A stretch of DNA of 64,000 nt, from positions 246,597 to 310,596 of the forward strand of contig JAJVIK010000011.1 in NCBI GenBank assembly GCA_022072055.1, given 5' to 3'. Within the stretch, counting starts at the first letter, position 1. Each line of letters opens with the position of its first letter. Source of the DNA: a bacterium (lineage in GTDB: Bacteria; Hinthialibacterota; Hinthialibacteria; OLB16). Both the position numbers and the translations under genes were made by a program. The notes beneath the pieces are model-generated. The model saw only the letters and a program-made list of their open reading frames with translations, was not told where the DNA came from and did not search any database. Of this stretch, positions 1,953-26,461 are shown piece by piece.

Positions 1953-2651
1953 TCAGCGCCTGTTGAGCGCCACCTCCGCCACTCGTTTCCCCAGGTTTCG
2001 CGCGGTCGTGAGGCCAAATTCATCCGCTGCCACGCTGTCATCCTTGCTCCACAGCGTGCCGCCCCAATGGGCGGTCGGCCTTCCCTCCCCCACGACCAGC
2101 ATCTCGTGCGCCATGAGAACTGTCTGAACCGACTGAATGGTGAGCTCCTGTCCGCCGTTGCGCGAACCGCCCACCGCGAGCACCGCGCCAATCTTTCCGG
2201 AAAGCGCGAAGTTGTTCTGGCGGAAGGTAATCCACCGGTCCAGAAACGCCTTGCACAAGTAAGTCATGTTCCCGAAATAGACCGGAGTGCCGAGGATGAT
2301 CGCGGCTACGCCAGGGTCGGAGAGCTTGGGCGCCAACTCGGGGAAATCATCGCGCTCCCCCTCATCAAGAGGGATTCCCACGGCCACTTGGCCGGGAATC
2401 TTAAGTCCGGCCAGTTCGATCAGCTCGATTTCGATGGCGTCCGAAACCTTCCGAGCTTCCTCGAGGCAAATCCCAAGCGCTTCCGCCGTGGACTTGCCTT
2501 TGCGAGGACTGCAAGACACGCCCACAACCTTGATCTTCTTCCCGCCTCCCCCCTCCCCTTGGGCTTGGGCGAGGAGGGTGTCTCCGACAGCCAGTCCGAA
2601 GGCCGCGCCCGCGCTTCCGATGAATCTACGCCTGCTCACATCATCCGTCAT
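1953..2651 (-). CDS. Tat-exported NADPH-dependent FMN reductase / flavodoxin-fold protein
   Basis: 232 residues. The N-terminus carries a twin-arginine signal (SRRRFIG, then a hydrophobic stretch to about residue 30), so the folded protein is probably exported with its flavin bound. The core matches the NADPH-dependent FMN reductase/flavodoxin-like fold: VVGVSCSPRKGKST is the phosphate-binding loop, and ILGTPVYFGNMTYLCKAFLDR is the typical iron-sulfur-flavoprotein/WrbA-like segment. A good Shine-Dalgarno (GGAGAGAA) precedes the ATG. It follows ccdA by 56 bases in the same direction, so it may feed or accept electrons in the thiol-redox operon. The partner is unknown. Confidence 0.8.
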   Translation of the reverse strand: MTDDVSRRRFIGSAGAAFGLAVGDTLLAQAQGEGGGGKKIKVVGVSCSPRKGKSTAEALGICLEEARKVSDAIEIELIELAGLKIPGQVAVGIPLDEGERDDFPELAPKLSDPGVAAIILGTPVYFGNMTYLCKAFLDRWITFRQNNFALSGKIGAVLAVGGSRNGGQELTIQSVQTVLMAHEMLVVGEGRPTAHWGGTLWSKDDSVAADEFGLTTARNLGKRVAEVALNRR

Positions 2652-2707
2652 GGGATTCTCTCCTTTCAGATCGATTCATGCACTCCATGGTCTGGGCGAC
2701 TCTCCAT

Positions 2708-3385
2708 CTACATGACCAACAGGCCGATCCCCACCATCAGGATCAGCCCCCCCGCGAGTTTGCGTGACCACTCTATTCCGCGTGTCCAGCCCTTGGAATC
2801 CGCGATGGCCTGCACCAAGCCCGCGGAGGTTCCGCCCGCGATGATCAGTCCGCAGTGCCCCAAGCTGTAGGCCGCAAGCAGAAGCCCCCCGAAAACAGCT
2901 CCCTTGAGCGGAACCAGGGCAAGCAGAGCCAGCAGGATCGGCCCCGCGCAAGGGAGCGAAGCGAGTCCAAACAGCAGCCCCAGGAAAAGCGCCCCCAGAT
3001 ACCCCTTGTGTTTGGGGGAGACTGCTCGGGGAGCGGGGATCTCGAAGCGGATAATCCCCAAGAGATGGAGCCCCATCAGCAGGCAAACCAACGCGGCGAC
3101 ATACCCCCACCAAGTGGCCCGGAGGATGGAGCCGGCAGCCCAAGTCGCGAGGAAAAGGATGAGAAACATCACGGTAATCCCAACCGAGAAGGCCAACGAC
3201 AGCAGCAAGGATCTCCCCACCGAGCGCTGCTCCTGCCCCGCCACATAGGCCACCATCAAGGGCGCCATCGCCAACACGCAGGGGTTCGCGGCGGTCAGAA
3301 GGCCCCCCGCGAAGGCCGCGAATGGAGCCAGCCATGCACGCGCCTCGATCAGCCCCAGAAGCGATTGGGTGGCCTGTTCCAACAT
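2708..3385 (-). CDS. ccdA: CcdA/DsbD-like transmembrane electron carrier
   Basis: 225 residues, about six membrane helices, the size of CcdA. The two Cys that shuttle electrons in this family are both present: one in NPCVLAMAPLM near residue 36 and one in LPCAGPILLAL in the second half. The known role is moving reducing equivalents from cytoplasmic thioredoxin to thiol proteins outside the membrane. The start ATG follows directly on the stop of the membrane-tethered thioredoxin gene (TGAATG), implying translational coupling and a functional pair. There is no cytochrome c maturation gene nearby, so the target is more likely another protein of this operon. Confidence 0.85.
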   Translation of the reverse strand: MLEQATQSLLGLIEARAWLAPFAAFAGGLLTAANPCVLAMAPLMVAYVAGQEQRSVGRSLLLSLAFSVGITVMFLILFLATWAAGSILRATWWGYVAALVCLLMGLHLLGIIRFEIPAPRAVSPKHKGYLGALFLGLLFGLASLPCAGPILLALLALVPLKGAVFGGLLLAAYSLGHCGLIIAGGTSAGLVQAIADSKGWTRGIEWSRKLAGGLILMVGIGLLVM

Positions 3386-3808
3386 TCAACGAACCCCCAT
3401 TTCGCCAAGTTTTAAGACAATTTCCTCGCGGGTCAGGGTTCCCTCGTTTCGCCAGAATTCTTCCCCATTGCTCTTCAGAAAAACCTGGGTCGGGATCAGC
3501 CGAACAGCGTAAATCTTCTGCGCCAGGGGAACCTTCTCAAGGTCGATGGTCTCCACCTCCAAACGCCCCGAGTACTCTGCCTTGATGGACTCCAGAATCG
3601 GGGCCATCTCCCGACATGGGATGCATTTCTCCCCTCCGATCTCGACAAGCCGAGGAAGGGAGGCGCTTGCGCTGGTCGGAGAGGTCACGCCGCCGGTAGG
3701 AATGATCGGAGAAGGGCGACCGTCCCTCTGGCGGAGGAGCGCGACAACGATCACAAGGAGTAAGACCCCCACCACGATCACCGAGGCGCGCGCGTTGTTG
3801 GTTTCCAT
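3386..3808 (-). CDS. Membrane-tethered thioredoxin
   Basis: 140 residues. One N-terminal membrane helix at about residues 8-26 anchors it with the thioredoxin domain outside. The active site is CIPC within GGEKCIPCREMAPIL, and the cis-Pro region (RLIPTQVFL) is intact. Role by family: reduce or exchange disulfides of extracytoplasmic proteins, probably recharged by the CcdA-like protein whose gene abuts it. It lies 23 bases after the small thioredoxin gene. Confidence 0.85.
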   Translation of the reverse strand: METNNARASVIVVGVLLLVIVVALLRQRDGRPSPIIPTGGVTSPTSASASLPRLVEIGGEKCIPCREMAPILESIKAEYSGRLEVETIDLEKVPLAQKIYAVRLIPTQVFLKSNGEEFWRNEGTLTREEIVLKLGEMGVR

Positions 3809-3831
3809 CTCCGCCTCCCCTCGATCCGCCG

Positions 3832-4080
3832 TCAGGAAACGGGGATTCGACCGATCAGGAGCCTTTCCACATCGTCGGGGCTGAGCGCTTTCCCCATGCT
3901 GAGGAGGTCGCCATCCACGATTAACGCCGGGGTCATCATCACCCCCCTTTTGACGATCTCGGCAAGTGAAGTGACCTTTTCGAGCTCAAACTCAAGCCCC
4001 AGTTTTTCGGCCGCGCTCCGGGTGTTCTCCTCAAGGGCGCGACACTTGGCGCACCCGGTTCCAAGGATTTCGATCTTCAT
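3832..4080 (-). CDS. Small cytoplasmic thioredoxin/glutaredoxin-like protein (TM0996/MTH895 type)
   Basis: 82 residues from ATG 4080, which has GGGAGGG upstream. The sequence MKIEILGTGCAKCRALEENT has the CxxC motif (CAKC) of the small redox-active disulfide protein 2 family, and MMTPALIVDG holds the cis-Pro. These proteins are often encoded beside DUF318-type permeases in arsenic or metal operons, as here. Likely a cytoplasmic thiol donor or metal-thiolate carrier. No export signal is present. Confidence 0.85.
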   Translation of the reverse strand: MKIEILGTGCAKCRALEENTRSAAEKLGLEFELEKVTSLAEIVKRGVMMTPALIVDGDLLSMGKALSPDDVERLLIGRIPVS

Positions 4081-4098
4081 CGCATGCCCTCCCATGGG

Positions 4099-4470
4099 TC
4101 ATCGGACCAAGGCGTGCAACCCGGCTTGGACCTTTTGGACGATTCGATGGACATCCTCGCCCATGTGCGGCTTATCGGGTTTCTTCAGGATTCCGATGTC
4201 GGTCGCCACAACATGAACCGAGGGGACGAAACCGGCGCGCTCCAACGCCCGTCGGCAGCAGTGATCCTCGCACCCATCGATCGCGACAAGGACTCCGGCT
4301 GCGCGCGTCCGCGCAGTTTTCTCGGGGATTTCCGCGGTCAGGGCCGCCAGGCAAAACAGGCTGCCGTCCTGCTGATGCATAAGCTGAACCCCCGCTTGGT
4401 TGGCCGCCTGGCCCACATGCGAGGCGCCCGCGCAGGTGAAGATCAAGGTTTCTCCATTTCCAATGGGCAT
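4099..4470 (-). CDS. DGC-domain putative zinc-binding protein
   Basis: 123 residues from ATG 4470, preceded by AAAGGAG. It has the pattern of the DGC family (named for a conserved Asp-Gly-Cys): FTCAGASHVGQAANQAG near the start, FCLAALTAEIP in the middle and IDGCEDHCCRRALE, which gives several conserved Cys and a His. The family is predicted to bind zinc and is found with metal permeases and thioredoxins; its biochemistry is poorly known. It starts 16 bases after the permease stop codon, so the two are almost certainly co-transcribed. Confidence 0.82.
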   Translation of the reverse strand: MPIGNGETLIFTCAGASHVGQAANQAGVQLMHQQDGSLFCLAALTAEIPEKTARTRAAGVLVAIDGCEDHCCRRALERAGFVPSVHVVATDIGILKKPDKPHMGEDVHRIVQKVQAGLHALVR

Positions 4471-4486
4471 TCTCTCTGCTCCTTTC

Positions 4487-5791
4487 TCAGAAGATCGCTC
4501 CAAAGCTCCACCCCACCAGCGTGGACATGACCACAACCAGCGCGGCGAACACCGTAGTTTTCTTGGGACCCATCACCCGGATCAGGACCAACAAACTTGG
4601 GAGCGACAGCGCCGGTCCCGCCAGCAGCAGAGCAAGCGCGGGACCCCGACCCATGCCAAGACGAATCAACATTTCGGTGATCGGGATTTCTGTGAGGGTG
4701 GCGAAGTACCAGATCATTCCGGTGAACGAGGCCACCAGATTGGAGGGCAGACTGTTCCCCCCCACGAGAGTGGCCACGGTCTTCTCAGGAATCAAAGCCC
4801 CGACAAAGCCCGTGAGAAACACTCCGCCGAAAAGAAGAGGAACAATCAGTTTGGCGTAGTCCCAGGTGGCGCTCAGCCACTCCACCACCTCGGCGCGGGA
4901 AAACCACTGCCAAAGCATGAAGAGGATCGCAAGTCCCACGGCCGCCGCGAGCTCCCACTTATGGGCGTGGATGGTCATGACCGGGCTGGGGATGGGCTCC
5001 ATCGACTCGATCTCCTGCGTGGGGAGGCGCCGCACCTCCCCGAGTTCTCCATCCCCGTCAAGTACAAAGAACTCCAGGGCGTCGCGGGTCTCAAGGCGAA
5101 CCTTGGCGCTGAACTCGGCGCCATCCCGGAGACGGATTGAGACATCGTTGGTGTTGTACCAATCGCTGAACACCAAAAAGAGGATCATCGCGGCCAGGAA
5201 CACGGAGGTCTGCCAAAGGCGGCGTGGGCTTGGTGGCGGCTCCGGCATCCGAAGAGCGGCCTTGGTCCTTGCGACCTCCTCCCGTCTGAACAGGAAGGCC
5301 ATGAGCAACCCGATCACGACCGCGAACAAGATCGCTCCGATGATCCGGGCGAGGCCCAGGTCGAACCCCAGAACCCGCGCCGAAAGAAACACCGCCATGA
5401 CATTGATCGCGGGGCCGGAATAGAGAAACGCGCTTGCGGGGCCGAGTCCGGCGCCTAGGGTGTAGATCCCCGCGAACATCGGCAGCACGCTGCACGAACA
5501 GACCGCGAGGATGAACCCAGCCACCGCGCCCACTCCGTAGGCCAAGGTCCGGTTTGAGTTGGGACCGAGATAGCGGATCACCGAACCATGCGACAGGAAG
5601 GTGGAAATCGCGCCCGCGATGAACATGGCGGGAACCACACAAGGGAGGGTGTGCTCGCGGGTATACCATTGCAACAAGGTGAAGGCCTCCAGGATGGCGT
5701 GCTCCACCTTGGGGTTCCCCAAAGGGAGGAACCAGGCGACAAGGAAGGTTGCTATCAGGATGAATAATACCGTTATATCTCTCAACTTCAT
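4487..5791 (-). CDS. Permease of the DUF318/ArsP (SO_0444 Cu/Zn efflux) type
   Basis: 434 residues from ATG 5791; the frame is open further upstream but MKLRDITVLFILIATFLVAW is a clear membrane N-terminus. The family signature CSCSVLPMFAGI lies at residues 98-109, followed by GAGLGPASAFLYSGPAINV. A second copy-like half near residues 320-430 contains GPALSLPSLL. About 68 hydrophilic residues (211-278) are inserted between the halves. Relatives export methylated arsenicals (ArsP) or Cu/Zn (SO_0444); the substrate here is not decided. Control by the adjacent ArsR-type regulator fits a metal or metalloid resistance role. Confidence 0.85.
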   Translation of the reverse strand: MKLRDITVLFILIATFLVAWFLPLGNPKVEHAILEAFTLLQWYTREHTLPCVVPAMFIAGAISTFLSHGSVIRYLGPNSNRTLAYGVGAVAGFILAVCSCSVLPMFAGIYTLGAGLGPASAFLYSGPAINVMAVFLSARVLGFDLGLARIIGAILFAVVIGLLMAFLFRREEVARTKAALRMPEPPPSPRRLWQTSVFLAAMILFLVFSDWYNTNDVSIRLRDGAEFSAKVRLETRDALEFFVLDGDGELGEVRRLPTQEIESMEPIPSPVMTIHAHKWELAAAVGLAILFMLWQWFSRAEVVEWLSATWDYAKLIVPLLFGGVFLTGFVGALIPEKTVATLVGGNSLPSNLVASFTGMIWYFATLTEIPITEMLIRLGMGRGPALALLLAGPALSLPSLLVLIRVMGPKKTTVFAALVVVMSTLVGWSFGAIF

Positions 5792-8351: not shown

Positions 8352-10658
8352 ATGCGCTGTCCCACCGCTTCCTTCCTCATCCCGGTCCTGGTCTTTTCTG
8401 GAATCGCGCTCGGAAATGGTCGCGCTCCCAGTTTCGCCGCGGAATCCGTGCTCCTTGCCGAGGGCGGCAAACCTCGGGTCTATATCCAGAGCGACAGCTC
8501 CATTGACAGTGTCAACCAGGGCGCGATTCAGGAGCTCTCCGTCTATCTCCACCGGATCACCGGCGCGGAGTTTCCCTCGAAATCGGACCAGGGGCTGATT
8601 CCCCTTTATGTTGGGGAACCCTCCGAGTTCAGCAACCTCGGGGTCCCAGTCCCCAAACTTGAACGGGAAGGTTTCCTCTTCAAGGTCACACCGAAGGCGA
8701 TCTATCTCTTGGGCGGGAGTCCACTCGGAACCCAGCACGCGGTTTACACCCTGCTGCGTGACCTTGGCTGCCGCTGGATCATGCCGGGGGAGATCGGCGA
8801 GTGTATTCCCGGAAACTCAAGCCCCTTACTTGCGGTGGGCGAGCGAGTCGAGACGCCGGACTTTGAGTATCGGATTGTCTGGTACGCTTATGGCTCTTCC
8901 CCGGAGGCCGCGGCGCGCTATGACGATTGGCTTCGCCGCAACCGCATGGGCAAGCCCAAGGTGATGCACGGCCACAACCTGACCCAGACCTTGGCGCGCA
9001 AAGCCACCTTCGAGCAGCATCCGGAATACTATTCCCTGGTGAGCGGCAAGCGGACCCAACAACAGATTTGCACCTCAAACCCGGAAGTGGTTCGGTTGGT
9101 GATCGAGAGCATCCGGGAGTATCTGGACCAGTATCCCGACACGGTTTCCTATTCGCTCTGCCCGGACGACAACACCGATTTTTGCGAGTGTGAACACTGC
9201 AGGGCCCTCGATGTCGGCCACATGGACCGTGGCGGCTTGCCGAGCATATCGGACCGCTACCAGGTTTTTCTGAACCAGGTCTTGGAGGGCCTAGAAAAGA
9301 CCCACCCCGGCGCGCGGGTGACCACCTATTCCTACAACCGCAATCACACCGATCCGCCCCAGAAGACCAAGGTCCATCCGAACACAACCGTGTTCATCAC
9401 CTCCAGCGCATTCTGTTCCGCGCATGGGATCGGCGATGAGTTCTGCGAGTCGCGCCAGGATTTCCGCAAGCTCATCACCGAGTGGACCCATCACACCAAG
9501 CACCTGGTGATCTATGAGTACGATCCGGTCCCCTACAGTGGAGCGCTCCCGTGGCCGATGTGGGACGCCCACATCCGAGAAATGAAGATCTACAAGGAGC
9601 TGGGGATCGATGGAGTCTCCGCCGAGGGGCAGAACTCCTGGGCCGCATACTTCCCGAACTACTACATCGCCGGTCAATTGATGTGGGATGCCGAGCAAGA
9701 CGGAGGCGAGCTCTGGGCCGACATGTTGGATTCCTTCTTTGGAGAATCCTCCGAGGCGATGCGTGGGTATTACAGCGCTCTTTCGAGCGTGATCGGGAAC
9801 TTCAAACCCAAGGTCGAATGGGGCCTGATCCAGTATCCGGAATTGTTCCCGACTGGTGTTGTCGAACAGGCGGAGGAAAGCCTGTCCCGGGCGGAGTCGC
9901 TCGCCAAGTCTGAAATGGTGAGGAAACGCCTAGAGATGGTCCGATTGTCCTTCGAGGAGATGAAGGCCTACCTCAAGGTCCGTGATCCCAAACGAACCGG
10001 AGGCTTCCCCGAATACAAAGCCAGCGTGGAAAAGATGCGCGAGTCCATCGATAAGCTCGCATCCATCAACGAGGATTATATCCTGGCCAAGATCGCCCAC
10101 GAAAAGACCGGCAAGGCGGTGGGGGAGAACTATGGGCGCGAGTTCGGATACATCAACAGTTGGCAGCTTTGCGGCCCCTTCGAGAACATCGGCATGGAGG
10201 GGCACGACACCCCCTATCCTCCCGAGACCAATCTCGACCTTTCATCCAGACACACCGGAAAGGGTGGAGTGGATGCGCTCTGGAAGCTGAGATCCTCGCC
10301 GGAATGGCGCGCCTTTGTGGACCTGCGCGCCGAGTATGAGCAGAAGGACAATGTGTGCGCCTACGCCCTTTGCTGGGTGACCATCCCGGATGGACCCAAG
10401 CAGGTCGAATTTCGGATGGGCAGTAATGATTCGATCAAGGCATTCTTGAACGGGAAGGAAATTTGGAACAACAAGGTGCAGCGGGTCGGCGCGCCGGATG
10501 AGGATCGAACCACGGTCACGCTACCGGAGGGAACCTCCACCGTGCTCCTCAAGATCTGCCAGACCGGACTCAACTGGGGGTTCTACTTCCGGATCATGGA
10601 GCCGGGTAAGGAAGAGCCGCTGGCCGGACTCAAGGCCTCGCCTTATCCGCCCAAGTGA
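8352..10658 (+). CDS. Secreted DUF4838 protein (putative glycoside hydrolase-like)
   Basis: 768 residues, ATG at 8352 with GGAGG just upstream, signal peptide of about 31 residues. The N-terminal part resembles the small alpha/beta domain found before GH20 and GH67 catalytic domains (GTQHAVYTLLRDLGCRW). The following DUF4838 domain contains SLCPDDNTDFCECEHC and later IYEYDPVPYSGALPWPMW, as in related predicted carbohydrate-active proteins. The C-terminus (about residues 620-760) looks like a jelly-roll sugar-binding domain (FRMGSNDSIKAFLNGKEIW). Probably a periplasmic or surface glycosidase-like enzyme; substrate unknown. Confidence 0.78.
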   Translation: MRCPTASFLIPVLVFSGIALGNGRAPSFAAESVLLAEGGKPRVYIQSDSSIDSVNQGAIQELSVYLHRITGAEFPSKSDQGLIPLYVGEPSEFSNLGVPVPKLEREGFLFKVTPKAIYLLGGSPLGTQHAVYTLLRDLGCRWIMPGEIGECIPGNSSPLLAVGERVETPDFEYRIVWYAYGSSPEAAARYDDWLRRNRMGKPKVMHGHNLTQTLARKATFEQHPEYYSLVSGKRTQQQICTSNPEVVRLVIESIREYLDQYPDTVSYSLCPDDNTDFCECEHCRALDVGHMDRGGLPSISDRYQVFLNQVLEGLEKTHPGARVTTYSYNRNHTDPPQKTKVHPNTTVFITSSAFCSAHGIGDEFCESRQDFRKLITEWTHHTKHLVIYEYDPVPYSGALPWPMWDAHIREMKIYKELGIDGVSAEGQNSWAAYFPNYYIAGQLMWDAEQDGGELWADMLDSFFGESSEAMRGYYSALSSVIGNFKPKVEWGLIQYPELFPTGVVEQAEESLSRAESLAKSEMVRKRLEMVRLSFEEMKAYLKVRDPKRTGGFPEYKASVEKMRESIDKLASINEDYILAKIAHEKTGKAVGENYGREFGYINSWQLCGPFENIGMEGHDTPYPPETNLDLSSRHTGKGGVDALWKLRSSPEWRAFVDLRAEYEQKDNVCAYALCWVTIPDGPKQVEFRMGSNDSIKAFLNGKEIWNNKVQRVGAPDEDRTTVTLPEGTSTVLLKICQTGLNWGFYFRIMEPGKEEPLAGLKASPYPPK

Positions 10659-10696
10659 GGCGCTCGGAGCGCGCGGCATGGGTGGGTGGCGTGCGT

Positions 10697-10740
10697 AGTT
10701 CAACTCCGCGTCCAGGTTCCGCACCGGAGTTCAACTCCGG
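10697..10740. repeat. Short repeat AGTTCAACTCCG (x2) with palindrome
   Basis: In the intergenic space between two convergent genes, the 12-mer AGTTCAACTCCG occurs at 10697-10708 and again at 10728-10739 (period 31). The second copy sits in a near-perfect palindrome, CCGGAGTT-C-AACTCCGG (10724-10740). This looks like a fragment of a small interspersed palindromic element rather than a terminator, since no T-run follows. Confidence 0.5.
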
Positions 10741-10790
10741 GGCGAGCGCTTTCACGGGGGAGGGAGCAAGCGAAAGGCTGTGCGTGTGGG

Positions 10791-12428
10791 TTACGTTCCG
10801 GGCGAGACCACTCGATTGGGTGAGTCCCACCAGCGGTTTTCAACAACCCGCGCCCCCTTGGCCTTGCCTTCCTCATCCAGCTTGCGGGCAATCTCTTTGG
10901 CCTCGCTCACATCCTCATAGGCCCCAAGGACCACCTTCACCCAAGAGACCCCTTGCGGGGAGATCCACGGTACCAGATACACCGGCCCCATCCGGTTGAC
11001 CTCCTTGGCTGCTTGGCGCGCTTTCTCGATGGTCTTGAGCGAGGCAATCTGGACACCGTACTTGGTCCCTTCCCGCTTGCTCTCGGCGGATTTCGATTCC
11101 GACCGAGGAGCAGGGTTTTCAGGCTCGGTCTGAACAGAAGCCTCTTTCGGGGGCAGCGATGACCCTTGCGGAATCGAGGACTCCACTTTGGGGAGAGGCG
11201 CCGACGCGAGCTCAGGCTCCTTCGCGGGAGCCGGGGATCCGCTCGACACTTGGGGCCGTGCCGGCTCGGGTTCCACGGTTCGCGGCATCTTGGGCGCAAG
11301 GTCCTCCTCGGAAAGCAGGCTCTGAACCGCGGGACGGGGCGACGCGCCAGAGGGGATCCCATTCTCCTCCTTTTGCGCCGTTTCCGGCTCCACACTTGCC
11401 TCCGAGAGAATCGGCAAGTCGCTTGAGATGTTTGCGGCGGTCGAGGTGGCGTGCGCCACTTGCTCGCGCGGCGAAAGGAGGGCTCCGAAGACTTGATTTC
11501 TGAAGTTCCAGCCGGTGAGCGCCAGGGCGCAGAGAAAACAGAAGGCTCCCGCAAGCGCGGGAGCTAGTACCCGTCGCCGATAGATACGTTCCAGTTGACG
11601 TGGCCTGGAGGCTGGGAGGCGGCTGGCGTGAAGCCCAATCGCCTCGCGCGCGATCTTCGCGCTAACCACGTGGGTCTCCTCGGTGAAGGCAATCACCAGG
11701 CAATAGTCGCAGAGAATGCTGATCAGCCTTGGAATCCCACCTGAGACTTTGTGAATGAGGCTTAGCGCCCCCGGGGCGAACGACACCTCGTTTTCCGCTC
11801 CACCGGCCACCAGCAGGCGGTGACGCACATACGCTTCAGTGTCCGCGCGCGAGAGGGGTCCCAGGTGGTGCCTCGCGTTGATCCGTTGGTTGAGCTGCCG
11901 CAAGGGGGGGAGCTTGAGGAGCAGGTTGAGCTCCGGCTGCCCCACCAGGATGATTTGAAGGAGCTTCGTCCCGGCGGTTTCTAGGTTGGAAAGCAGGCGC
12001 AGCCGCTCCAGCGCCTGGATGGAAAGGTTCTGGCTTTCATCCACGATGATCACCACCCGTCTTCCGGCCTCATGCTCCCCGATCAGGAAGCGCACGAAGG
12101 CGTCCATCTTCTCGGAGAGCTCCATTTCCGGCTCGATGGGAACTTCAAGGTCTATCAAAATCGCGGTCACCAGATCATCCGGATCAAGGACCGGATTGAG
12201 GATCAGGGCGCGCCGCACCTCCGGTCCGAACTCGGAAAGCAGGAGGCGGATCAGGTGGGTCTTCCCGGAGCCGACCTCGCCCGAAAGCACCATGAACCCC
12301 AAGCCCTCGCGCATGGCGAAGCGCAGGTGCGCGAGCCCCTCGCGGTGCGACTCGCTGGGATGGAAGAACTCCGGATCAGGAGTCACCGCGAACGGTTTCT
12401 TGCGAAATCCAAAATAGCTCTCGTACAT
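10791..12428 (-). CDS. ExeA/GspA-like AAA ATPase with C-terminal SPOR domain
   Basis: 545 residues. It starts with MYESYFGFRKKPFAVTPDPE, the hallmark of the ExeA/GspA secretion-ATPase family. Walker A is GEVGSGKTH (about residues 50-58) and Walker B VVIIVDES (about 125-132). One membrane helix lies at about residues 285-305, then a long Pro/Ser/Glu-rich periplasmic linker, then a SPOR peptidoglycan-binding domain at about 455-535 (YGVQIASLKTIEKARQAAKE). ExeA with ExeB helps type II secretin assembly through the cell wall. Here the SPOR domain may replace the separate wall-binding domain. No other secretion gene is adjacent; the gene begins 10 bases after the dockerin protein gene and is probably co-transcribed. 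Confidence 0.85.
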   Translation of the reverse strand: MYESYFGFRKKPFAVTPDPEFFHPSESHREGLAHLRFAMREGLGFMVLSGEVGSGKTHLIRLLLSEFGPEVRRALILNPVLDPDDLVTAILIDLEVPIEPEMELSEKMDAFVRFLIGEHEAGRRVVIIVDESQNLSIQALERLRLLSNLETAGTKLLQIILVGQPELNLLLKLPPLRQLNQRINARHHLGPLSRADTEAYVRHRLLVAGGAENEVSFAPGALSLIHKVSGGIPRLISILCDYCLVIAFTEETHVVSAKIAREAIGLHASRLPASRPRQLERIYRRRVLAPALAGAFCFLCALALTGWNFRNQVFGALLSPREQVAHATSTAANISSDLPILSEASVEPETAQKEENGIPSGASPRPAVQSLLSEEDLAPKMPRTVEPEPARPQVSSGSPAPAKEPELASAPLPKVESSIPQGSSLPPKEASVQTEPENPAPRSESKSAESKREGTKYGVQIASLKTIEKARQAAKEVNRMGPVYLVPWISPQGVSWVKVVLGAYEDVSEAKEIARKLDEEGKAKGARVVENRWWDSPNRVVSPGT

Positions 12429-14729: not shown

Positions 14730-15068
14730 ATGAAAATCATCGTCGCGGTCATCCGTCCCAGTAAGGTCGAATCGGTCAAGGCCGCCCTTGAAGAGGCGGG
14801 CATTCGTGGCCTGACCATCTCCGAGGTTCGCGGTCACGGACGCCAAAAAGGGCACAAAGAGATCTTCCGCGGCAAGGAGTACTCCGTGGACATGCTTCCC
14901 AAGGCGCGACTGGAGGTGGCGGTGACCGACACTCAGGTGGAGGGGGTGGTCCAAGCCCTGATCGAATCCGCCCGGACCGGCGATGTCGGCGATGGCAAGA
15001 TCTTCATCCTCCCCATGGAAAACGCCTACCGGATCCGCACCGGGGAAACCGGCGTCGACGCCATCTAA
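14730..15068 (+). CDS. glnB: Nitrogen regulatory protein P-II
   Basis: 112 residues, the normal P-II length. The T-loop has the uridylylatable Tyr at exactly position 51 (GKEYSVDMLPKARLE), the N-terminus MKIIVAVIRPSKVESVK fits, and the C-terminal signature TGDVGDGKIFILPME is present. P-II proteins sense 2-oxoglutarate and ATP/ADP and control nitrogen uptake and assimilation. I start it at ATG 14730, not at the longer open frame from 14505. No amtB or glnA is adjacent; instead a GH4 glycosidase begins 16 bases after the stop codon. Confidence 0.93.
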   Translation: MKIIVAVIRPSKVESVKAALEEAGIRGLTISEVRGHGRQKGHKEIFRGKEYSVDMLPKARLEVAVTDTQVEGVVQALIESARTGDVGDGKIFILPMENAYRIRTGETGVDAI

Positions 15069-15084
15069 CGCTCACCCTCCAGCG

Positions 15085-16386
15085 ATGCCCAAAATCAGCT
15101 TCATCGGCGCGGGGAGCACGGTCTTTGTCAAGAATGTGCTTGGGGACTGCCTTCGGACGTATTCCCTGCGAGACTCCGTGATCGCGCTGATTGACATCGA
15201 TCCCGAACGGCTCCGCGATTCCCAGGTCATGCTGGAGAACCTCCGCCGCACAGCTGGGGCAAGCGCCAAAATCGAAGCGTTCCAGGCCAAATCGGCGCGC
15301 GAGGCGCTCGATGGCTCGGACTATGTGGTCAACGCCATTCAAGTCGGGGGCTATGAACCCGCGACCGTGATCGATTTCGAGATTCCCAAGAAATACGGGC
15401 TCCGCCAAACCATCGGGGACACGCTGGGAATTGGAGGAATCTTTCGCGGGTTGCGCACGATCCCAGTCCTCCTCGATTACTGCCGGATTCTGGAGGAAGT
15501 CGCTCCGAAGGCGTTGCTGCTCAACTACTCCAACCCGATGGCAATGCTCACTGGGGCAATCCTCAAGGCCACTGGAATCCGGGCCGTGGGGCTGTGCCAT
15601 AGCGTCCAGGTTTGCGCGAGACATCTGTGCGCCGAGCTCGACCTGCCCACGGACAACCTTCGCTGGAGGATCGCGGGGATCAACCACCAGGGGTGGCTGC
15701 TGGAGATCTCTCGAAATGGGGTCGACCTGTACCCGGAGATCAAGCGCCGCGCCGAGTTGCCGGAGTATAAACGGAAGGACGCGGTCCGGTTTGAGATCCT
15801 GAAATGGTTCGGGCATTACCTCACCGAGTCCAGCGAACACTCGAGCGAATATGTCCCCTGGTTCATCAAGAGCAAGGCCCCTGAGCTGATCGAGAGATTT
15901 CACATCCCCCTGGACGAGTATCCTCGTCGCTGCGTCCGCCAGATTGAGGGCTGGAAAAAGATGCGCGAGGAACTTGTGTCTGATCAGCCAGTCCTTCATG
16001 AACGCTCGGAGGAGTACGCCTCCTATATCCTTGAGGCGGTGGAAACCGGAATCCCCTACACCTTCGGGGGGAATGTTTTGAATGAGGGCTTGATCACTAA
16101 CCTCCCACAGGGGGCCTGCGTGGAAGTGATGTGCGTGGCCGACCGGAATGGAGTCACCCCCACCCGGTTTGGGCCCCTGCCGCCGCAATGCGCCGCGCTC
16201 AATCGGACAAACATCAATGTCCAAGAGATGGTCATTGAAGCCGCTCTCACCCGCCGAAAAGAGGCGATCTACCAGGCAGCGTTGCTGGACCCGCACACCG
16301 CCGCGGAACTGACCATCGACGAGACAGTGGCCCTTTGCGAGGATCTCATCGCGGCCCATGGGCGCTTTCTTCCCGAATACCATTGA
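15085..16386 (+). CDS. GH4 family NAD-dependent glycosidase (alpha-galactosidase/glucosidase type)
   Basis: 433 residues from ATG 15085. The Rossmann start MPKISFIGAGSTVFVKNVLGD binds NAD. The metal and redox site is GLCHSVQ (Cys171, His172) followed by the GINHQGW His, and LLNYSNPMAM is typical. GH4 enzymes cleave glycosides by a transient oxidation at C3, using NAD and Mn2+; this sequence is closer to MelA-type alpha-galactosidases than to phospho-glucosidases as far as motifs allow. Cytoplasmic: no signal peptide. It is 16 bases after glnB and 61 before pssA, so it probably belongs to one transcript. Confidence 0.85.
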   Translation: MPKISFIGAGSTVFVKNVLGDCLRTYSLRDSVIALIDIDPERLRDSQVMLENLRRTAGASAKIEAFQAKSAREALDGSDYVVNAIQVGGYEPATVIDFEIPKKYGLRQTIGDTLGIGGIFRGLRTIPVLLDYCRILEEVAPKALLLNYSNPMAMLTGAILKATGIRAVGLCHSVQVCARHLCAELDLPTDNLRWRIAGINHQGWLLEISRNGVDLYPEIKRRAELPEYKRKDAVRFEILKWFGHYLTESSEHSSEYVPWFIKSKAPELIERFHIPLDEYPRRCVRQIEGWKKMREELVSDQPVLHERSEEYASYILEAVETGIPYTFGGNVLNEGLITNLPQGACVEVMCVADRNGVTPTRFGPLPPQCAALNRTNINVQEMVIEAALTRRKEAIYQAALLDPHTAAELTIDETVALCEDLIAAHGRFLPEYH

Positions 16387-19136: not shown

Positions 19137-19291
19137 GGATGCCGAATACGCCTTGAGGCCTGCGACGCGACGCCCCCCCAAACCGAACCCACCCATGCTA
19201 TCCTCCCCCCATTCTCTGTTCCGCTGGGGGGCTGACCTATTCCGGCGCGAGTCCCCTCGGAACAGACTGCAATGCCTTGGAGGGTCTCCCC

Positions 19292-22084
19292 GTGCCGAAG
19301 AAATACGAAATCCATGTGGTCTCGAACACTCACTGGGATCGGGAATGGCTGTATGACTTTCAGGAAACCCGGATGATGCTGGTTGAGTTCTTCGATCAGC
19401 TCCTGAATATCCTGGACAACGAACCCCGCTATCGAGCCTTCCTCCTCGATTCCCAAACCGTTCCGATTGAGGACTACCTGGAGGTCCGTCCGGAGGCACG
19501 CGAGCGGATCAAGCGCCATGTCGCCGCCGAGCGACTCTTTGTCGGACCGTGGTACACCTGCCCGGAAGGCTTCATCGTGGCCGGGGAGTCCCTGGTTCGG
19601 AATCTCCTGTATGGACACAAGGTCGCGGACGAATTCGGCAAGCCGATGAAGGTCGGCCACACCCCCTTCTCCTACGGGCAGAACTCACAGATGCCTCAGA
19701 TCTACGCCGGTTTCGGAATCGACAGCATCCTCTTCTATCACGGGGTCTCGCATGAGGATGTGGCCAACGAATTCACCTTCGAGGGCGCCGACGGGACTCG
19801 TCTTTTCGCCTCGCAGATGAGCTCCTTCGCGCGCTACAACTATTATTTCGCGGTCTATCGCCCGGTCCTATTCGGAACCTCCATTGACCAGCGCGGCCAT
19901 GATTGGAGAAAGGGCGGCCTGCCCTTCCACCTCTGTTCCGAGGACCGCTGCATGGGTCACCACTATCTTCTCGACGCGCCGCGGGGGTATCGAGCGGACC
20001 TGCTCGAAGGGGCCCTTCAGGAGCTGAAGGAGCGCGAAATCAAGGCTGGAACCACGCCCATCCTGGCCTTCATGATGGGTCACGACAGCAGCGTCGCGGA
20101 CCTGGACGAGGTCCGGATCCTGGAGGATGCCAAGAAGGTTTTGGCGGATGACCATGTCATTCACAGCACGCTTCCCGACCTTGTGGCCAAGGTCAAGGCG
20201 CGCGCCAGGAATCTGGTGATTCTGCGCGGGGAGCGCCGAGTGCCCAAGATGATGAACGGGCGACTCCATCTTTACAGCGATGTGCTTTCCAGCCGGACTC
20301 GCGTCAAACGCTTGAACGCCCTTGCCGAATCTGGTTTACAGCGGCGGGCCGAACCGTACGCGGCGCTGGCCTGGCTGCTGGGGGCCGAATACCCATCGTC
20401 CCTTCTGGACCTCGCCTGGAAATCGATGCTTCAGTCGCACGCCCATGACAGCATCGCGGGAAGCGGCGTGGATGAAATCGAGCGGGATGTCACCTACCGG
20501 CTCCGTCAGACCATCAACATTTCACAGGGTGTCGCTCGCCGTGGAATGGAGGCGGTCCAGCGGCGAATCCAGACGATCGCAAAGGCGCCGGAGGATGTCT
20601 TCTTGACCGTTTTCAATGCCTCGCTTGTCGCTCGCTCGGAGGTTTTGACCGTGGTCGCGGATCTTCCCCGGACGAGCGGCTTGGCGAAGTTTCAACTTGT
20701 CGAGGAGGGCGGCAAAGAGACCCTTCCCGTGCAGGTGTCCACGCGCAGGCCGCACAACGCCGTGATCAACCATGCGGGGGATGCCCCCACCATGATGGAG
20801 TGCGAGCGGGTGAAGTTTCATTTCGAGGCCCGGAGCATCCCCGGCCTTGGTTACAACGTGTACCGATTTGTCCCCGGCGGGGATTTCCTTCGCGGTGGCC
20901 TTGTTTCGGGGCGCAACGCGATGGAGAACGAGCATCTCGCGGTGACGATCAATTCCAACGGCTCCCTTTCGCTGGTGCACAAGGAAACCAATCGGCGCTA
21001 CGACGATCTGCACTACTTCGAGGATGGCGGAGAAGCCGGCCATGCCTGGATGCATATCGAACCGGCGGAGGACCTGATCCTCACAAGCCTTGGGACTCCC
21101 GCGCTGATTGGGCTTGAGGAAAACGGCCCCCTGCTCGCGCGCTACAGGGTTGAGTATCGGATGGAGATTCCAGCCGCTCCGGACGAAAACGGAGGCGACC
21201 CCTGGCAGCGATTGGATGGCTCGGGGAGCGCCTGTCGACGTTCACGGGAGACTGTTCCGCTCACGATTGTGTCCCACATCACGCTGAGGAAGGGCGCGCG
21301 CGCCTTGGAAGTGACGACCCGCCTGGAGAACCGCGCCGAAAATCACCGCCTTCGAGTGGTTCTTCCCACACGACTCAAGGCCCGGGTCTGCCACGCCGAG
21401 AGCGCCTTTGACGTGGTCGAACGGGAAATCATCTACGGTCCCGGAAGTCCCTGGCACGGTGGAGTCAACGCCACCTTTCCGATGCAGCGCTTCGTGGATG
21501 TCAGCGATGGGAAGGCGGGGTTGGCGTTTATCAGCGACGGACTGCGAGAGTACCAAGTGACCCAGGATGCGGATCGAGCTATCGCGATCACGCTTCTGCG
21601 GGCCTTTCAAGTGTCGCTCACGACAGTGAGCAAGCGCTGGGAGCCTCACCCCGAAATGAAACTCTCGCAATCGCCGGGAGAGCACGAGTTTCGCTATTGG
21701 ATTTACCCCCACGCCGGGAACTGGGAAAAGGGCGGCGTGTTTACCGAGGTCGAGCGGTTCACTGTCGGCCTGGAGCCCGCGCAGGCCGGCGCGCATGCAG
21801 GTGATCTTCCGACCCGCCTCAGTTTTCTCAGCGTGGAACCATCTCAACTCGTGGTCACGGCCCTTAAGAGGTCCGAGGATGGGAAGGGGGTTCTCCTTCG
21901 GGTGTTTAACCCAGGGTCGAAGGCGGTGACGGGCAAAGTCCGGGCCTATCGCCCGCTCCGCTCGGCGTGCTATCTCACCCTCGAGGAGAAGGAGAGCGGA
22001 CCGATCAAAGTCCAGGGAGGTCAAGCGACCTTCAAAGCCGGTCCCAAGCAGATTGTGACCCTCAAGCTGGTCGTCGAGAGGTAA
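19292..22084 (+). CDS. GH38 alpha-mannosidase family protein with altered catalytic site
   Basis: About 930 residues. I choose GTG 19292, which has GGAGGG seven bases upstream. N-terminal SNTHWDREW (His14, Asp16) is the GH38 zinc-binding start, and AHDSIAGSGVDEIERD in the middle holds the later His/Asp. GH38 proteins cleave alpha-mannosides using a zinc and an Asp nucleophile, normally in a P-D-(S/T)-F-G-Q-type motif. Here the matching segment is VGHTPFSYGQNSQMPQIY with Phe126 in place of that Asp. The C-terminal beta domains (to residue 930) look complete. No signal peptide. Convergent with the GH116 gene. Confidence 0.85.
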   Translation: MPKKYEIHVVSNTHWDREWLYDFQETRMMLVEFFDQLLNILDNEPRYRAFLLDSQTVPIEDYLEVRPEARERIKRHVAAERLFVGPWYTCPEGFIVAGESLVRNLLYGHKVADEFGKPMKVGHTPFSYGQNSQMPQIYAGFGIDSILFYHGVSHEDVANEFTFEGADGTRLFASQMSSFARYNYYFAVYRPVLFGTSIDQRGHDWRKGGLPFHLCSEDRCMGHHYLLDAPRGYRADLLEGALQELKEREIKAGTTPILAFMMGHDSSVADLDEVRILEDAKKVLADDHVIHSTLPDLVAKVKARARNLVILRGERRVPKMMNGRLHLYSDVLSSRTRVKRLNALAESGLQRRAEPYAALAWLLGAEYPSSLLDLAWKSMLQSHAHDSIAGSGVDEIERDVTYRLRQTINISQGVARRGMEAVQRRIQTIAKAPEDVFLTVFNASLVARSEVLTVVADLPRTSGLAKFQLVEEGGKETLPVQVSTRRPHNAVINHAGDAPTMMECERVKFHFEARSIPGLGYNVYRFVPGGDFLRGGLVSGRNAMENEHLAVTINSNGSLSLVHKETNRRYDDLHYFEDGGEAGHAWMHIEPAEDLILTSLGTPALIGLEENGPLLARYRVEYRMEIPAAPDENGGDPWQRLDGSGSACRRSRETVPLTIVSHITLRKGARALEVTTRLENRAENHRLRVVLPTRLKARVCHAESAFDVVEREIIYGPGSPWHGGVNATFPMQRFVDVSDGKAGLAFISDGLREYQVTQDADRAIAITLLRAFQVSLTTVSKRWEPHPEMKLSQSPGEHEFRYWIYPHAGNWEKGGVFTEVERFTVGLEPAQAGAHAGDLPTRLSFLSVEPSQLVVTALKRSEDGKGVLLRVFNPGSKAVTGKVRAYRPLRSACYLTLEEKESGPIKVQGGQATFKAGPKQIVTLKLVVER

Positions 22085-22123: not shown

Positions 22124-24571
22124 TCACTCTCCTCCCCTGGCCGCATTCATCACTCGCGCGACGAGACCCCCGTCTTGGCATGGCCCGGAAAGATCTTGTT
22201 CGCGGATCGCCGCCGGGAGGGACCAAAGCATCATGTCCTGGTAGTAGTCGTTTCCGAAGGTCCGCTCGCCGGTGTCCACATCCCCTCGCAGGATATTGGG
22301 CATGTCCCAGGTGTATCCCTGGACACAGATCAGGTTGTGCCAGGTTTTCCGCGCGAGTTCGAGCCCAAATTCCATCTCCCCGTTGTACATATAAGTCATC
22401 GCGAGCATCAGGGCCTCAGGCGGGAAATAACTGAAGCGACCATAATCCCAGGTCCCCGCTTTGGCCTGCGGACGTGGAGTGCCATCCGGATTGGCGTAAT
22501 TCACCGCGCCGTGCCTCGAAAGCGCCACATTGCAGCGCTTGATGGTTGCGAGCGTGGTATTCACCCGATCCTGGGGTAGCCCCTCCTCCAGTCCATGATG
22601 GTCGATGACCCACTCGCCATCGAGCTGATACCCGAACACATACTCCGATTTGATGCCGGTTTCTGGTTCGAAGAAATTCAAATAATGGGACCCGGTCCAG
22701 AGTCGTTTCTCCATCGCCTCCCGGGCGGCGGCAATCCACTCCGCGCACTGGGCGGCGAACTCCGTGTCCCCAGCCCCCTTCGCCATTCGCTCCGCGATTC
22801 GGAGTTCCGCCAGATGCAGCGAGCCAACATGGGCGGTCATTCCGCTCCAGCCCGGTTCGGCGGCCTCGAACCACTCCGAGCCTTCATTCTTGTCCGGCAT
22901 CGAGAGGATCCGCTCACCGATGGTGTATTCCGGGGTGGTTCTCAAGCCCACAGTTCGCAGCATGCTCTTCTTGACCATCGGGTAGAGCTCCGCCAGGACC
23001 TTCCGATCCGGAGTGTCGTGGACCATCAGGAACTGATCCACCAGCGAGGCGAGCGAGATCCCATTGGTGGCAAACTGATAGCCGCGTGTCGGGGAAGCGA
23101 AATCAATATACGGAGTGCTCCCGGTGCAGCCGCCGAAGACCCACACCGGCGCGCCATCCTCATATTGGAACCCCTGATAGCCGCGCAGGGTGGACAGTGC
23201 GAGATCGGGGAAAAAATACGCAATCGGCAGGCTGCCGTAAAAGCTGCACGGGATGCACTCGATCTGCGGACACCCGCGCGGGCATTCGTTCATCCCAAAA
23301 AGGCCATCCTCCGCGCGCACCCAATCCGGGAGAGGATGCCCGGCCTGGGCCCAGAGGCTGTCCTCGGTGAACAGATAGAGGACATTGACCAACGAGTCGC
23401 GCAGCCAAACCGGCAGCGATTCGTCCGTATAGACCTCCGCCTGCCAGGCCAAGATCCGCATGAGCAGAGACTCGTGGCTCTCGGCCACCCGCTTCGCGGT
23501 TTCGACCGGGTCCGGGTAAAACTTGGCGTACATGTGCTTGAAGGCGCGCGGTTCGCCACTATACTTCTCGGGAACTGCCGTGGCGGTCGGGAATCCCACT
23601 CCGTTCCATTCCGGCGCGCACCAGGTGAGAACAAACCGAATCACCCGATTCTCCGAAGGCTTAAGCGCAAAATCAGCGGCCACCGAACTGCCCGCATGTG
23701 AGCCATCGGCATCCGGGAGCCGAGTGGCGATTTGCTCCCAAGCACTTCCGGTCGACCCCAATTCCCCTCCACTCCGGACCTTCTCGGCTCCAAGGACGGT
23801 CACCGAATACGAGGCGAGGTCCCCTCTCACCGAGATCCCGGGTAGAGCCTCGCCGAGCTCTCTTCTGTCAAACTGCATGTGTTGAACCTCCCAGGTTGCG
23901 GGACCAGGGAAAGAGAAGGCGAGAGTCCCTTGGCAAGGCTCGGAGGTTCGGTTTCGGAGGCGGACCTCAAAGACCGTCGCGGGCAGAATCGAGCTCAGGG
24001 TGTCGCCTGGAAGGAAGGGGGCCCAGGCGCGCAAGGCGACGCCCACCGGGGCCTCGATCTCATACTCCAGATCGGCCACCGGATAATGCCCCCAGTAACG
24101 GATCGCCTTCGGCGTCTTAACCCCCCCGAGGTCCAATGCGCCCCCGACCGGGAAGATCGGGACTCGCTTCGGGTTCACCTGGTAGTCCCCCCACCCCTGC
24201 TTGATCTGCTTCGGATCGCACAGCACCCAGGTTGTCTCCCCCACGGACACCCCCAAGAAGGGGAGGTTCATCGGCCCGCGACGAGGAACATGCGAGTTGA
24301 AGATCGTGCAGTAACCAAGGAGGCCGCTGGTTTCGAGGTCGAGGCAGCCGGTGTCGATTCCCCCAAGGGCGAGCCCGTTGGTGACCGGATCGTCCTGGTT
24401 GTAGATCACCCCACAGACCGGCTTGGAAAACCCGGCGGCTTCAAACTGAAGCCATTCCCGGCATGGGAGGTTGCTCGGGAACAGTTCTCCCTTCACAACG
24501 GCCTGGCCGTTAACCGCGTCCATGAGGAATAAGCTCAACACCAGCAGACTTCTTGTTGATGAAATCGACAT
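22124..24571 (-). CDS. Secreted GH116 family protein (beta-glucosidase/glucosylceramidase-like)
   Basis: 815 residues with a signal peptide of about 22 residues. The N-terminal domain resembles the beta-sandwich of GH116/GBA2-type enzymes (CGVIYNQDDPVTNGLALGGIDTGCLDLE), and the C-terminal half is an (alpha/alpha)6-type domain with LASLVDQFLMVHDTPDRKVL and YEDGAPVWVFGGCTG. Family members are beta-glucosidases, xylosidases or glucosylceramidases; the substrate here is open. Probably periplasmic or extracellular. It faces GH38 tail to tail, 39 bases apart, and is divergent from the GH28-like gene. Confidence 0.78.
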   Translation of the reverse strand: MSISSTRSLLVLSLFLMDAVNGQAVVKGELFPSNLPCREWLQFEAAGFSKPVCGVIYNQDDPVTNGLALGGIDTGCLDLETSGLLGYCTIFNSHVPRRGPMNLPFLGVSVGETTWVLCDPKQIKQGWGDYQVNPKRVPIFPVGGALDLGGVKTPKAIRYWGHYPVADLEYEIEAPVGVALRAWAPFLPGDTLSSILPATVFEVRLRNRTSEPCQGTLAFSFPGPATWEVQHMQFDRRELGEALPGISVRGDLASYSVTVLGAEKVRSGGELGSTGSAWEQIATRLPDADGSHAGSSVAADFALKPSENRVIRFVLTWCAPEWNGVGFPTATAVPEKYSGEPRAFKHMYAKFYPDPVETAKRVAESHESLLMRILAWQAEVYTDESLPVWLRDSLVNVLYLFTEDSLWAQAGHPLPDWVRAEDGLFGMNECPRGCPQIECIPCSFYGSLPIAYFFPDLALSTLRGYQGFQYEDGAPVWVFGGCTGSTPYIDFASPTRGYQFATNGISLASLVDQFLMVHDTPDRKVLAELYPMVKKSMLRTVGLRTTPEYTIGERILSMPDKNEGSEWFEAAEPGWSGMTAHVGSLHLAELRIAERMAKGAGDTEFAAQCAEWIAAAREAMEKRLWTGSHYLNFFEPETGIKSEYVFGYQLDGEWVIDHHGLEEGLPQDRVNTTLATIKRCNVALSRHGAVNYANPDGTPRPQAKAGTWDYGRFSYFPPEALMLAMTYMYNGEMEFGLELARKTWHNLICVQGYTWDMPNILRGDVDTGERTFGNDYYQDMMLWSLPAAIREQDLSGPCQDGGLVARVMNAARGGE

Positions 24572-24757: not shown

Positions 24758-26461
24758 ATGCAAATGGAAAAACCCGGACCGAGCAACCGGTCGGACAGGA
24801 AGGGGGCCCTATTGAGAGTGTTGACACTCGTGTTCTGCTGCGCCCAACTCTGCGCGTTCTCAATCGATTCCCATTCGGCAACCTATTCGATCCGGGATTA
24901 CGGCGCAAAGGGGGATGGCCAAACCTCCGACACGGCGGCGATCCAGGCCGCCATTGAGGCTTGCGCGAACGCCGGAGGGGGAACCGTCCTGTTCCCCCCT
25001 GGGAGATTCCTCTCCGGGACAATCTTCCTCCGGAGCCATGTCACCCTGGAGTTCGACACGGGTTCCACCCTACTTGGCGGCACCCGCCTGGAGGACTATC
25101 CGCTCACTCTGTGCGCCTTTGCCTCATACACCGACCGTTACTGCGGACGCGCGCTGATCTGGGGCGAGGGGCTTGAGGATGTCGGAATTGTCGGTCGGGG
25201 AACCATCGATGGCCAGGGCGCGGCCTTCAAGGACAACCGCCCCTCGGATGAAGTGGCCGCCGAGATCGCCAAAGACTGGACCGACCCCTCGCGCCATGTC
25301 CCGAAAGGGGTTTATATCAATCGTCCCTATCTGATTCGCCTGGTCAGTTGCAGTGGGGTCCGAGTGGAAGGGCTCACCCTGCGCGATTCGGCGATGTGGA
25401 TGCAGCACTACCTGAACTGCGACTTTGTCGCCATCCGCGGGATCACGGTCTACAACCACTGCGCGGCGAATAACGACATGATCGACATCGACTGTTGCCG
25501 CGAGGTGCTTATCTCCGATTGTTTCGGGGACACCGATGATGACGCTCTGACCCTCAAGAGCACCGCCGACTGTCCCACCGAAAATGTCACGGTCACCAAC
25601 TGCGCCCTCAGTTCGCACTGCAACGCGATCAAGCTGGGCACCGAGTCGAGCGGGGGCTTTAAGAACATCACCATCTCCAACTGTGTGATCCGGCCATCGA
25701 GGGATCGCGAGGCCATGGCGGGCCGAAATGAAGGACTCGCGGGGATCGCGCTGGAGATGGTCGACGGCGGGAGCCTGGAGCGAGTGGCGATCTCCAATGT
25801 CGCCATGTACGGTCAAACCACGCCAATCTTCATTCGCCTCGGAAACCGCGCGCGACCCTTCAAGACGGACATGGAGAAACCTGGAGTTGGGACCCTTCGC
25901 GATGTCATCCTGGGCAACATTGTGGCCACCGGGGCGGGAGGCATCGGCTGCTCGATCACCGGGCTTCCGGACCACCCGGTGGAGAATGTCACGCTCTCCA
26001 ATATCCGGATCGAGTACAAAGGGGGCGTGGCGCGCCTTCCGAAGCTCTCGGAGGTCCCGGAGGTTCCGGAAAAGTACCCGGAGTCCGCGATGTTCGGGAC
26101 GCTTCCCGCGTATGGGCTCTATTGCCGCCATGTGAAGGGTCTGCGCTTGGAATCCCTCGACTTGGCGACCGAAAAGCACGATGCCCGCCCCGCGCTGGCA
26201 TGCGAGGATGTCCGTGACTTGGAGCTCGCGCGCTTCCGGGGATCGGTCTCACCCTCTGTCCCAATGGTGGCGGTGTTCAAGGACGTTTCAGATGCGTTGA
26301 TTTCCGGCTGTGTGTCCCCGGAGGTCGCCACATTCCTGCGTTTCGAAGAGAAAGTCCGCCAAGTGCGCCTGACCGGCAATGACCTCAGCCGCGCCGGCGC
26401 TCCCTTCGAAGCGGTGGCGGGCGCGGACGCGAAGGAAGTCATTATCGTCGGCGATCGTTAA
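24758..26461 (+). CDS. Secreted GH28-like right-handed beta-helix protein
   Basis: 567 residues. ATG 24758 has a perfect AGGAGGT seven nucleotides upstream. A signal peptide is followed by YSIRDYGAKGDGQTSDT, the classic start of pectin-lyase-fold proteins, and FPPGRFLSGTIFL. Candidate catalytic Asp residues in the GH28 positions are NNDMIDID and TDDDALTLKST, but the GHG His motif is not seen as such (SHCNAIKLGTESSGG instead), so it may be a GH28 relative with other specificity. Beta-helix rungs continue to about residue 550. Likely acts on acidic or decorated polysaccharides, next to a sulfatase. Confidence 0.78.
   Translation: MQMEKPGPSNRSDRKGALLRVLTLVFCCAQLCAFSIDSHSATYSIRDYGAKGDGQTSDTAAIQAAIEACANAGGGTVLFPPGRFLSGTIFLRSHVTLEFDTGSTLLGGTRLEDYPLTLCAFASYTDRYCGRALIWGEGLEDVGIVGRGTIDGQGAAFKDNRPSDEVAAEIAKDWTDPSRHVPKGVYINRPYLIRLVSCSGVRVEGLTLRDSAMWMQHYLNCDFVAIRGITVYNHCAANNDMIDIDCCREVLISDCFGDTDDDALTLKSTADCPTENVTVTNCALSSHCNAIKLGTESSGGFKNITISNCVIRPSRDREAMAGRNEGLAGIALEMVDGGSLERVAISNVAMYGQTTPIFIRLGNRARPFKTDMEKPGVGTLRDVILGNIVATGAGGIGCSITGLPDHPVENVTLSNIRIEYKGGVARLPKLSEVPEVPEKYPESAMFGTLPAYGLYCRHVKGLRLESLDLATEKHDARPALACEDVRDLELARFRGSVSPSVPMVAVFKDVSDALISGCVSPEVATFLRFEEKVRQVRLTGNDLSRAGAPFEAVAGADAKEVIIVGDR

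Follow-up and report, generated by a model that had tools for sequence, protein, structure and literature searches.

A widespread GH38-fold clade without the aspartate nucleophile and with an arginine-bearing insert, possibly an inverting phosphorylase

The gene considered here lies on the forward strand at positions 19292..22084 of the window, by which we mean the whole stretch of 64,000 nucleotides analysed, and encodes a GH38-fold protein of 930 aa, counted from a GTG start, that lacks the Asp nucleophile. A Shine-Dalgarno-like GGAGGG (19279..19284, forward strand), read directly, stands 5′ of the GTG at 19292 with a spacing of 7 bases; an alternative TTG start at 19277 on the same strand would shift the residue numbering and turn Phe126 into residue 131. 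Pfam recognised GH38N (2.3e-28), the middle domain, GH38C and GH38C2 in the protein, and its AlphaFold2 model (pLDDT 93.3, pTM 0.94) had 2wyh as best PDB match, with a Z of 45.3 and an rmsd of 2.1 Å over 853 aligned residues. By these domains and this match the window protein is GH38 in both sequence and fold. Its sole NCBIfam match was mannosylglycerate hydrolase, at 450.8 bits against a cut-off of 1138. Upstream of the gene are a GH4 gene (14983-16386, forward strand), PssA and NadA, the last two named by eye, and on the other side lie a GH116-type gene (22124-24571, reverse strand) and a GH28/pectate-lyase-type gene (24758-26461, forward strand). The GH38 gene forms no clear operon with any of these neighbours, and promoter-like and terminator-like sites around it occurred at or below chance.

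The consulted part of the description of SpGH38, the Streptococcus pyogenes enzyme (PMC2815779), gives His13, Asp15, Asp125 and His351 as metal ligands, Asp125 as nucleophile and Asp232 as acid/base, with Arg149 and Tyr192 acting on Asp125, the latter by a hydrogen bond to the nucleophile. In our alignment the column of D125, nucleophile and fourth zinc ligand at once, holds Phe126 in the window protein (TTC, 19667..19669, forward strand). An earlier sequence-only reading had taken VGHTPFSYGQ for the GH38 nucleophile motif with Phe in the place of Asp, and this identification stands, for phmmer set 'ghtPFsyG' of the window protein against 'gyfPDtfG' of 3lvt and 2wyh without a gap and E. coli MngB shows GYLPDSFG in the same column. 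The same reading had held that the zinc-type His and Asp of HWDREW and HDSIAG remain, which the alignment bore out. HWDREW (19331..19348, forward strand) contains H14 and D16, equivalent to the zinc ligands H13 and D15 of SpGH38, and W19, equivalent to W18, the roles being those given in the consulted part of PMC2815779; the zinc ligand His385 (SpGH38 H351) and Asp386 (SpGH38 D352) are encoded at 20444..20449 of the forward strand. Kept as well, and unmentioned earlier, is the catalytic acid/base position (SpGH38 D232), here Asp265 (20084..20086, forward strand), and the column of R149 carries His150 (19739..19741, forward strand). The window protein thus retains, according to the sequence alignment, three of the four zinc ligands and the acid, and lacks the nucleophile. 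With respect to what defines a GH38 retaining mannosidase, the zinc ligand pattern and the Asp acid/base were found in the sequence and the Asp nucleophile was looked for and is absent; therefore, as far as the alignment indicates, its mechanism is not that of a GH38 retaining mannosidase.

Phe126 had been treated as a feature of one odd protein, a view that has to be given up. The sequence-only reading had proposed counting the homologues that share the motif, and nearly all of the best 80 relatives from bacterial and archaeal genomes read (S/T)-P-F-(S/G)-(Y/W/N)-G-Q. Going by record titles, these relatives belong to Hydrogenedentota, Hinthialibacteria, Omnitrophota, Calditrichota, Ignavibacteria, Sumerlaeota, Lentisphaerae, Kiritimatiellales, Balneolaceae, Marinimicrobia, Latescibacterota, Armatimonadota, Sedimentisphaerales and others, and Asp-less GH38 proteins were found in more than 10 phyla. 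We aligned 172 GH38 rows, comprising the best relatives, the GH38s of the window's phylum, samples from other phyla and E. coli MngB as a yardstick; near-copies from overlapping sequence regions are counted inside the 172, and 155 distinct rows entered the tree. ORFs shorter than 400 aa and the half-genes of L059 and L077 were left out, and so were, as remote or partial, L084, L094, L096, L097, L098, L109, L115, L119, L121, L128, L129, L132, L149 and L152. Among the remote rows the nucleophile column reads D in L084, L094, L096, L097, L109, L115, L121, L128 and L129. L098, with E in this column, and L119 and L132, with G, are remote GH38N-like proteins with a degraded zinc motif that form a separate set and are likely odd relatives.

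None of the 125 clade rows carries Asp at column 126 (F 106, T 7, S 4, C 4, N 3, A 1), far from anything chance would produce; Glu and His never occur there either. H14 and D16 are present in 124/124 readable rows, H385 in 125/125 and D265 in 124/125, and column 150 is always basic (R 75, H 42, K 8 of 125). That the motif has been misaligned, another Asp near it being the true nucleophile, is very improbable; the match to 3lvt, 2wyh and MngB is gap-free, no clade-specific invariant Asp or Glu was found near the motif in the alignment, and we found nothing in favour of such an artefact.

The FastTree phylogeny of the 155 distinct rows, 109 without Asp (91 F, 7 T, 4 S, 4 C, 2 N, 1 A) and 46 with D, was built with the nucleophile and insert columns excluded. 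One change of state suffices to explain it, with a support of only 56 for the branch between the Asp and Asp-less groups and a loose placement of row L144, and the sequences are compatible with a single origin of the Asp-less GH38s. The clade is under strong purifying selection, as dN/dS ranged from 0.03 to 0.15 in 12 informative close pairs, a thirteenth pair (L079/L080) being near-identical and uninformative. In 109 of 124 clade rows the catalytic His follows an in-frame ATG by 20 residues or fewer, which leaves no room for a signal peptide, and judged by this N-terminal length the clade enzymes appear to be cytoplasmic.

Loss of the Asp goes together with a second change. A clade-specific insert region occupies residues ~178-238 in the alignment (19823..20005, forward strand), and in the subset of rows compared the spacing between columns 151 and 265 is 113-124 aa in Asp-less proteins versus 68-103 in Asp-type ones. 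All 125 Asp-less rows combine a long stretch (at least 105 residues between these columns) with R or K at position 181, and all 47 Asp-bearing rows have a shorter stretch and neither residue at 181. Arg181 itself (19832..19834, forward strand) is R in 124 and K in 1 of the 125 clade rows, and Arg190 (19859..19861, forward strand), which the alignment and the AlphaFold2 model place in an insert helix, is R in 111/125. Counting from the conserved Asp of the 'DG/DN' turn, Tyr192 of SpGH38 stands at +13 and R181 of the window protein at +14, with the insert next, so that in the sequence alignment R181 is one residue past the Tyr192 position. The basic residue of column 150 is kept in the clade although its carboxylate partner is lost. 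Because R181 is invariant and lies by the Tyr192 position, and because a basic residue persists at 150, an anion is likely to be bound at the R181/150 site. In our view the clade consists of ancient and widespread cytoplasmic GH38-fold zinc enzymes, the metal being predicted from its ligands, in which the Asp was lost along with the gain of the invariant-Arg insert.

The two options offered by the sequence-only reading, an inactive binder and a different reaction, fared unequally in the light of these data. PDB entry titles record GMII D204A and Bl_Man38A nucleophile mutants solved with sugar bound, so a GH38 site deprived of its nucleophile can bind. An inactive binder (pseudoenzyme) is nevertheless unlikely, since D265 persists in 124 of 125 rows and a mere binder would not be expected to retain the acid; near-invariant zinc ligands, the strong purifying selection and the coupled insert also speak against it. 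The suggestion of a different reaction is favoured by the insert with its invariant Arg, the kept acid/base and a link to a HAD protein described below.

The same fold might carry out another reaction, such as an elimination, a de-acylation or the hydrolysis of a phosphorylated or carboxylated glycoside that places its own anion on R181. The substrate of MngB is a 6-phospho glycoside, and the GH38 and deacetylase folds are distant kin. The invariant Arg suggests an anion under this explanation too, and MngB, a D-type relative, is an alpha-mannosidase encoded beside the 2-O-alpha-mannosyl-D-glycerate PTS transporter MngA; the HAD protein aside, however, we found no gene context specific to such chemistry, and we regard this explanation as somewhat doubtful. 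We consider it rather doubtful that the enzymes are inverting hydrolases that use water, bound to the zinc or held by R181, for a direct attack on C1. The H14/D16/H385 triad is complete, and, judging from the SpGH38 ligands in the consulted part of PMC2815779, loss of the Asp ligand should free a site at the zinc, but column 126 offers no Asp, Glu or His as a base anywhere in the clade, Arg next to the site makes a poor base, and the HAD link would be left unexplained.

This link was seen first in gene order. A HAD gene lies directly upstream of the Asp-less GH38 gene in 18 loci of an Ignavibacteria-type branch; in other phyla, 5 loci combine the clade with a second, related HAD group. The best sequence matches of the second group are beta-phosphoglucomutases, far below the naming cut-off; the first HAD member reached 30 bits with beta-phosphoglucomutase TIGR01990 (NCBIfam), whose cut-off is 189.4, and counts as no more than a relative, and the sole PDB match of the first HAD group, TM1254, is weak. 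We followed the HAD family, initially defined from clade neighbours, with three profiles (A3, A2, A4) through four phylum samples. Pooled, these contained the HAD in 21 of 540 genomes, and all 21 also had an Asp-less GH38. In the sample of 288 genomes, the 11 with a HAD all fell within the 16 with an Asp-less GH38 and none within the 22 with Asp-type GH38s only, 8 of these 22 being classed by absent insert coverage with the residue itself unread; in several of the 11 the HAD and GH38 genes are not adjacent. The 4 HAD genomes of the 198-genome sample were the same 4 that held an Asp-less GH38, with only the best 3 or 4 candidates scored here and in the 288 sample for genomes with many. In the 40-genome sample both HAD genomes were among the 3 with an Asp-less GH38, loci being called Asp-less from the full-length score in this and the 198 sample and also read in the latter, and among 14 genomes of the window's phylum all 4 HAD genomes fell within the 7 with an Asp-less GH38. 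Fisher values for the association ignore relatedness. Conversely, 21 of the 30 genomes with an Asp-less GH38 had the HAD and 9 did not. Since no HAD family member was found in the window's own genome or in its relatives G011 and G013, all three with an Asp-less GH38, the partner is not universal in the clade. At L221 of G012, a genome of the same family, the HAD partner (1551-3290) is followed by a gene (3402-4622) that by eye is similar to a phosphofructokinase at its start.

Further members of the Ignavibacteria-type operon are a GH94 phosphorylase (13 loci), a phosphohexomutase (11), NanE (9), an FAD oxidoreductase (10) and a NAGPA-domain protein (11); at L079 the NAGPA phosphodiester-glycosidase with a type IX sorting tail and the FAD_oxidored protein are found at 10196-11842 and 850-2157. 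Together with a GlcNAc 2-epimerase in 2 clade loci, NanE points to N-acetylmannosamine (ManNAc) in part of the clade, and hence to a hydrolase assisted by its substrate, in which C1 would be attacked on its beta face by the 2-acetamido group of an alpha-ManNAc glycoside, which is trans to the leaving group, or by a 2-OH bound to the zinc. Such a hydrolase would require no enzymic nucleophile, Phe, Thr or Ser at column 126 would pack on the acetamide, and the retained D265 and zinc ligands would be put to use. This explanation is doubtful all the same, as it leaves both the invariant R181 and the HAD partner unexplained and as NanE, missing from the window's genome, exceeds the cut-off in a single one of 14 genomes of the same phylum. 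By this distribution we also ruled out ManNAc as the only sugar for the whole clade. The GH94 neighbour was discarded as a clue to the sugar, cellobiose phosphorylase (507 bits) and chitobiose phosphorylase (484) matching it about equally well. Likewise rejected was the argument from a missing kinase to a phosphorylase, because ROK kinases occur in 8/8 Ignavibacteria-type genomes tested.

A kept zinc site and acid, a lost carboxylate, a gained Arg, a cytoplasmic location and the HAD link are together best fitted by an inverting phosphorylase. Its sequence hallmarks, namely no enzymic nucleophile or base, a kept acid and a predicted cytoplasmic location, are found in the clade; for inverting phosphorylases a single catalytic residue, the acid, suffices, according to the consulted part of PMC8950772. 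We therefore favour, at a rough probability of 0.37, a zinc enzyme of GH38 fold in which an external nucleophile, most likely phosphate, attacks an alpha-mannoside-type substrate with inversion. The enzyme would be active and cleave alpha-manno-configured glycosides, the nucleophile entering from the beta face at the place of the former Asp carboxylate. Inorganic phosphate, the most likely nucleophile, would be held by R181 and the basic residue 150, which in a normal GH38 is the partner of the Asp; D265 would protonate the leaving group and the zinc would hold O2/O3. The reaction would yield a beta-sugar-1-phosphate, which the HAD partner may convert to the 6-phosphate in many of these bacteria, and in the operon that combines HAD, GH38, GH94 phosphorylase, phosphohexomutase and NanE the sugar may be N-acetylmannosamine. 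The fuller form of the proposal, in which alpha-mannosides or alpha-N-acetylmannosaminides yield a beta-mannose-type 1-phosphate, the Asp has been traded for an Arg-lined phosphate site and the HAD is a dedicated beta-phosphomannomutase, is more tentative.

Several points weigh against the phosphorylase. Phe126, present in most members, may crowd the phosphate site. The HAD, far below the beta-phosphoglucomutase cut-off, could be a phosphatase instead of a mutase, and with ROK kinases in all eight genomes a hydrolase plus kinase route is possible. The window's genome itself has no HAD family member, no NanE and no operon context for the GH38 gene.

Compared with known systems, the window protein shares with the bacterial GH38 alpha-mannosidases SpGH38 (2wyh/2wyi) and Enterococcus faecalis 3lvt/5kbp the whole fold, the H/D/H zinc ligands, the acid Asp, W19 and D386, and differs from SpGH38 in D125 replaced by Phe126, the Y192 site by R181 plus the insert, and R149 by His150. 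The motif order is also that of MngB of the E. coli mng operon, which differs in its PDSFG and short loop and from whose equivalog, mannosylglycerate hydrolase, the window protein stays far below the cut-off. The proposed logic resembles that of GH130 mannoside phosphorylases and hydrolases, where, in the consulted part of PMC4599007, basic residues versus carboxylates at the site decide between phosphorolysis and hydrolysis, that is, between phosphate and water, and the phosphorylases draw on intracellular phosphate; GH130, however, has an unrelated fold, acts on beta-mannosides and yields alpha-mannose-1-phosphate. The proposed pairing with a beta-phosphomutase recalls GH65 inverting alpha-glucoside phosphorylases, and maltose phosphorylase provides beta-glucose-1-phosphate for beta-phosphoglucomutase (consulted part of PMC9257631); GH65 differs in its unrelated fold, and in the Asp-less clade the HAD is a putative mutase.

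In the open-licence literature searched we found no description of a nucleophile-free GH38 clade or of a GH38 phosphorylase, and the consulted parts of a glycoside-phosphorylase review (PMC8950772), which places phosphorylases in 11 CAZy families, never mention GH38. By that literature the GH38 fold and family are known, and the nucleophile-free clade with its insert appears to be new. If the proposal is correct, a textbook family of retaining zinc mannosidases holds a large branch with a changed mechanism, for which annotation by family name would mislead, because the sole NCBIfam match of the window protein lies far below its cut-off. No row among the 172 mixes the two states, Asp going with a short loop and its absence with an Arg insert in every case, and the clade would be a direct test of a change from hydrolase to phosphorylase.

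A few members depart from the common pattern: L045 reads FSFGH, L144 combines Ser at the nucleophile position with Lys181, and L165 has Ala in the place of the acid D265. The window's genome also encodes a second Asp-less GH38 (L082, TPFSYGQ, G000:C16:22017-22907) and an ordinary Asp-type GH38 (L081, VADIFGH, G000:C27:7551-8354).
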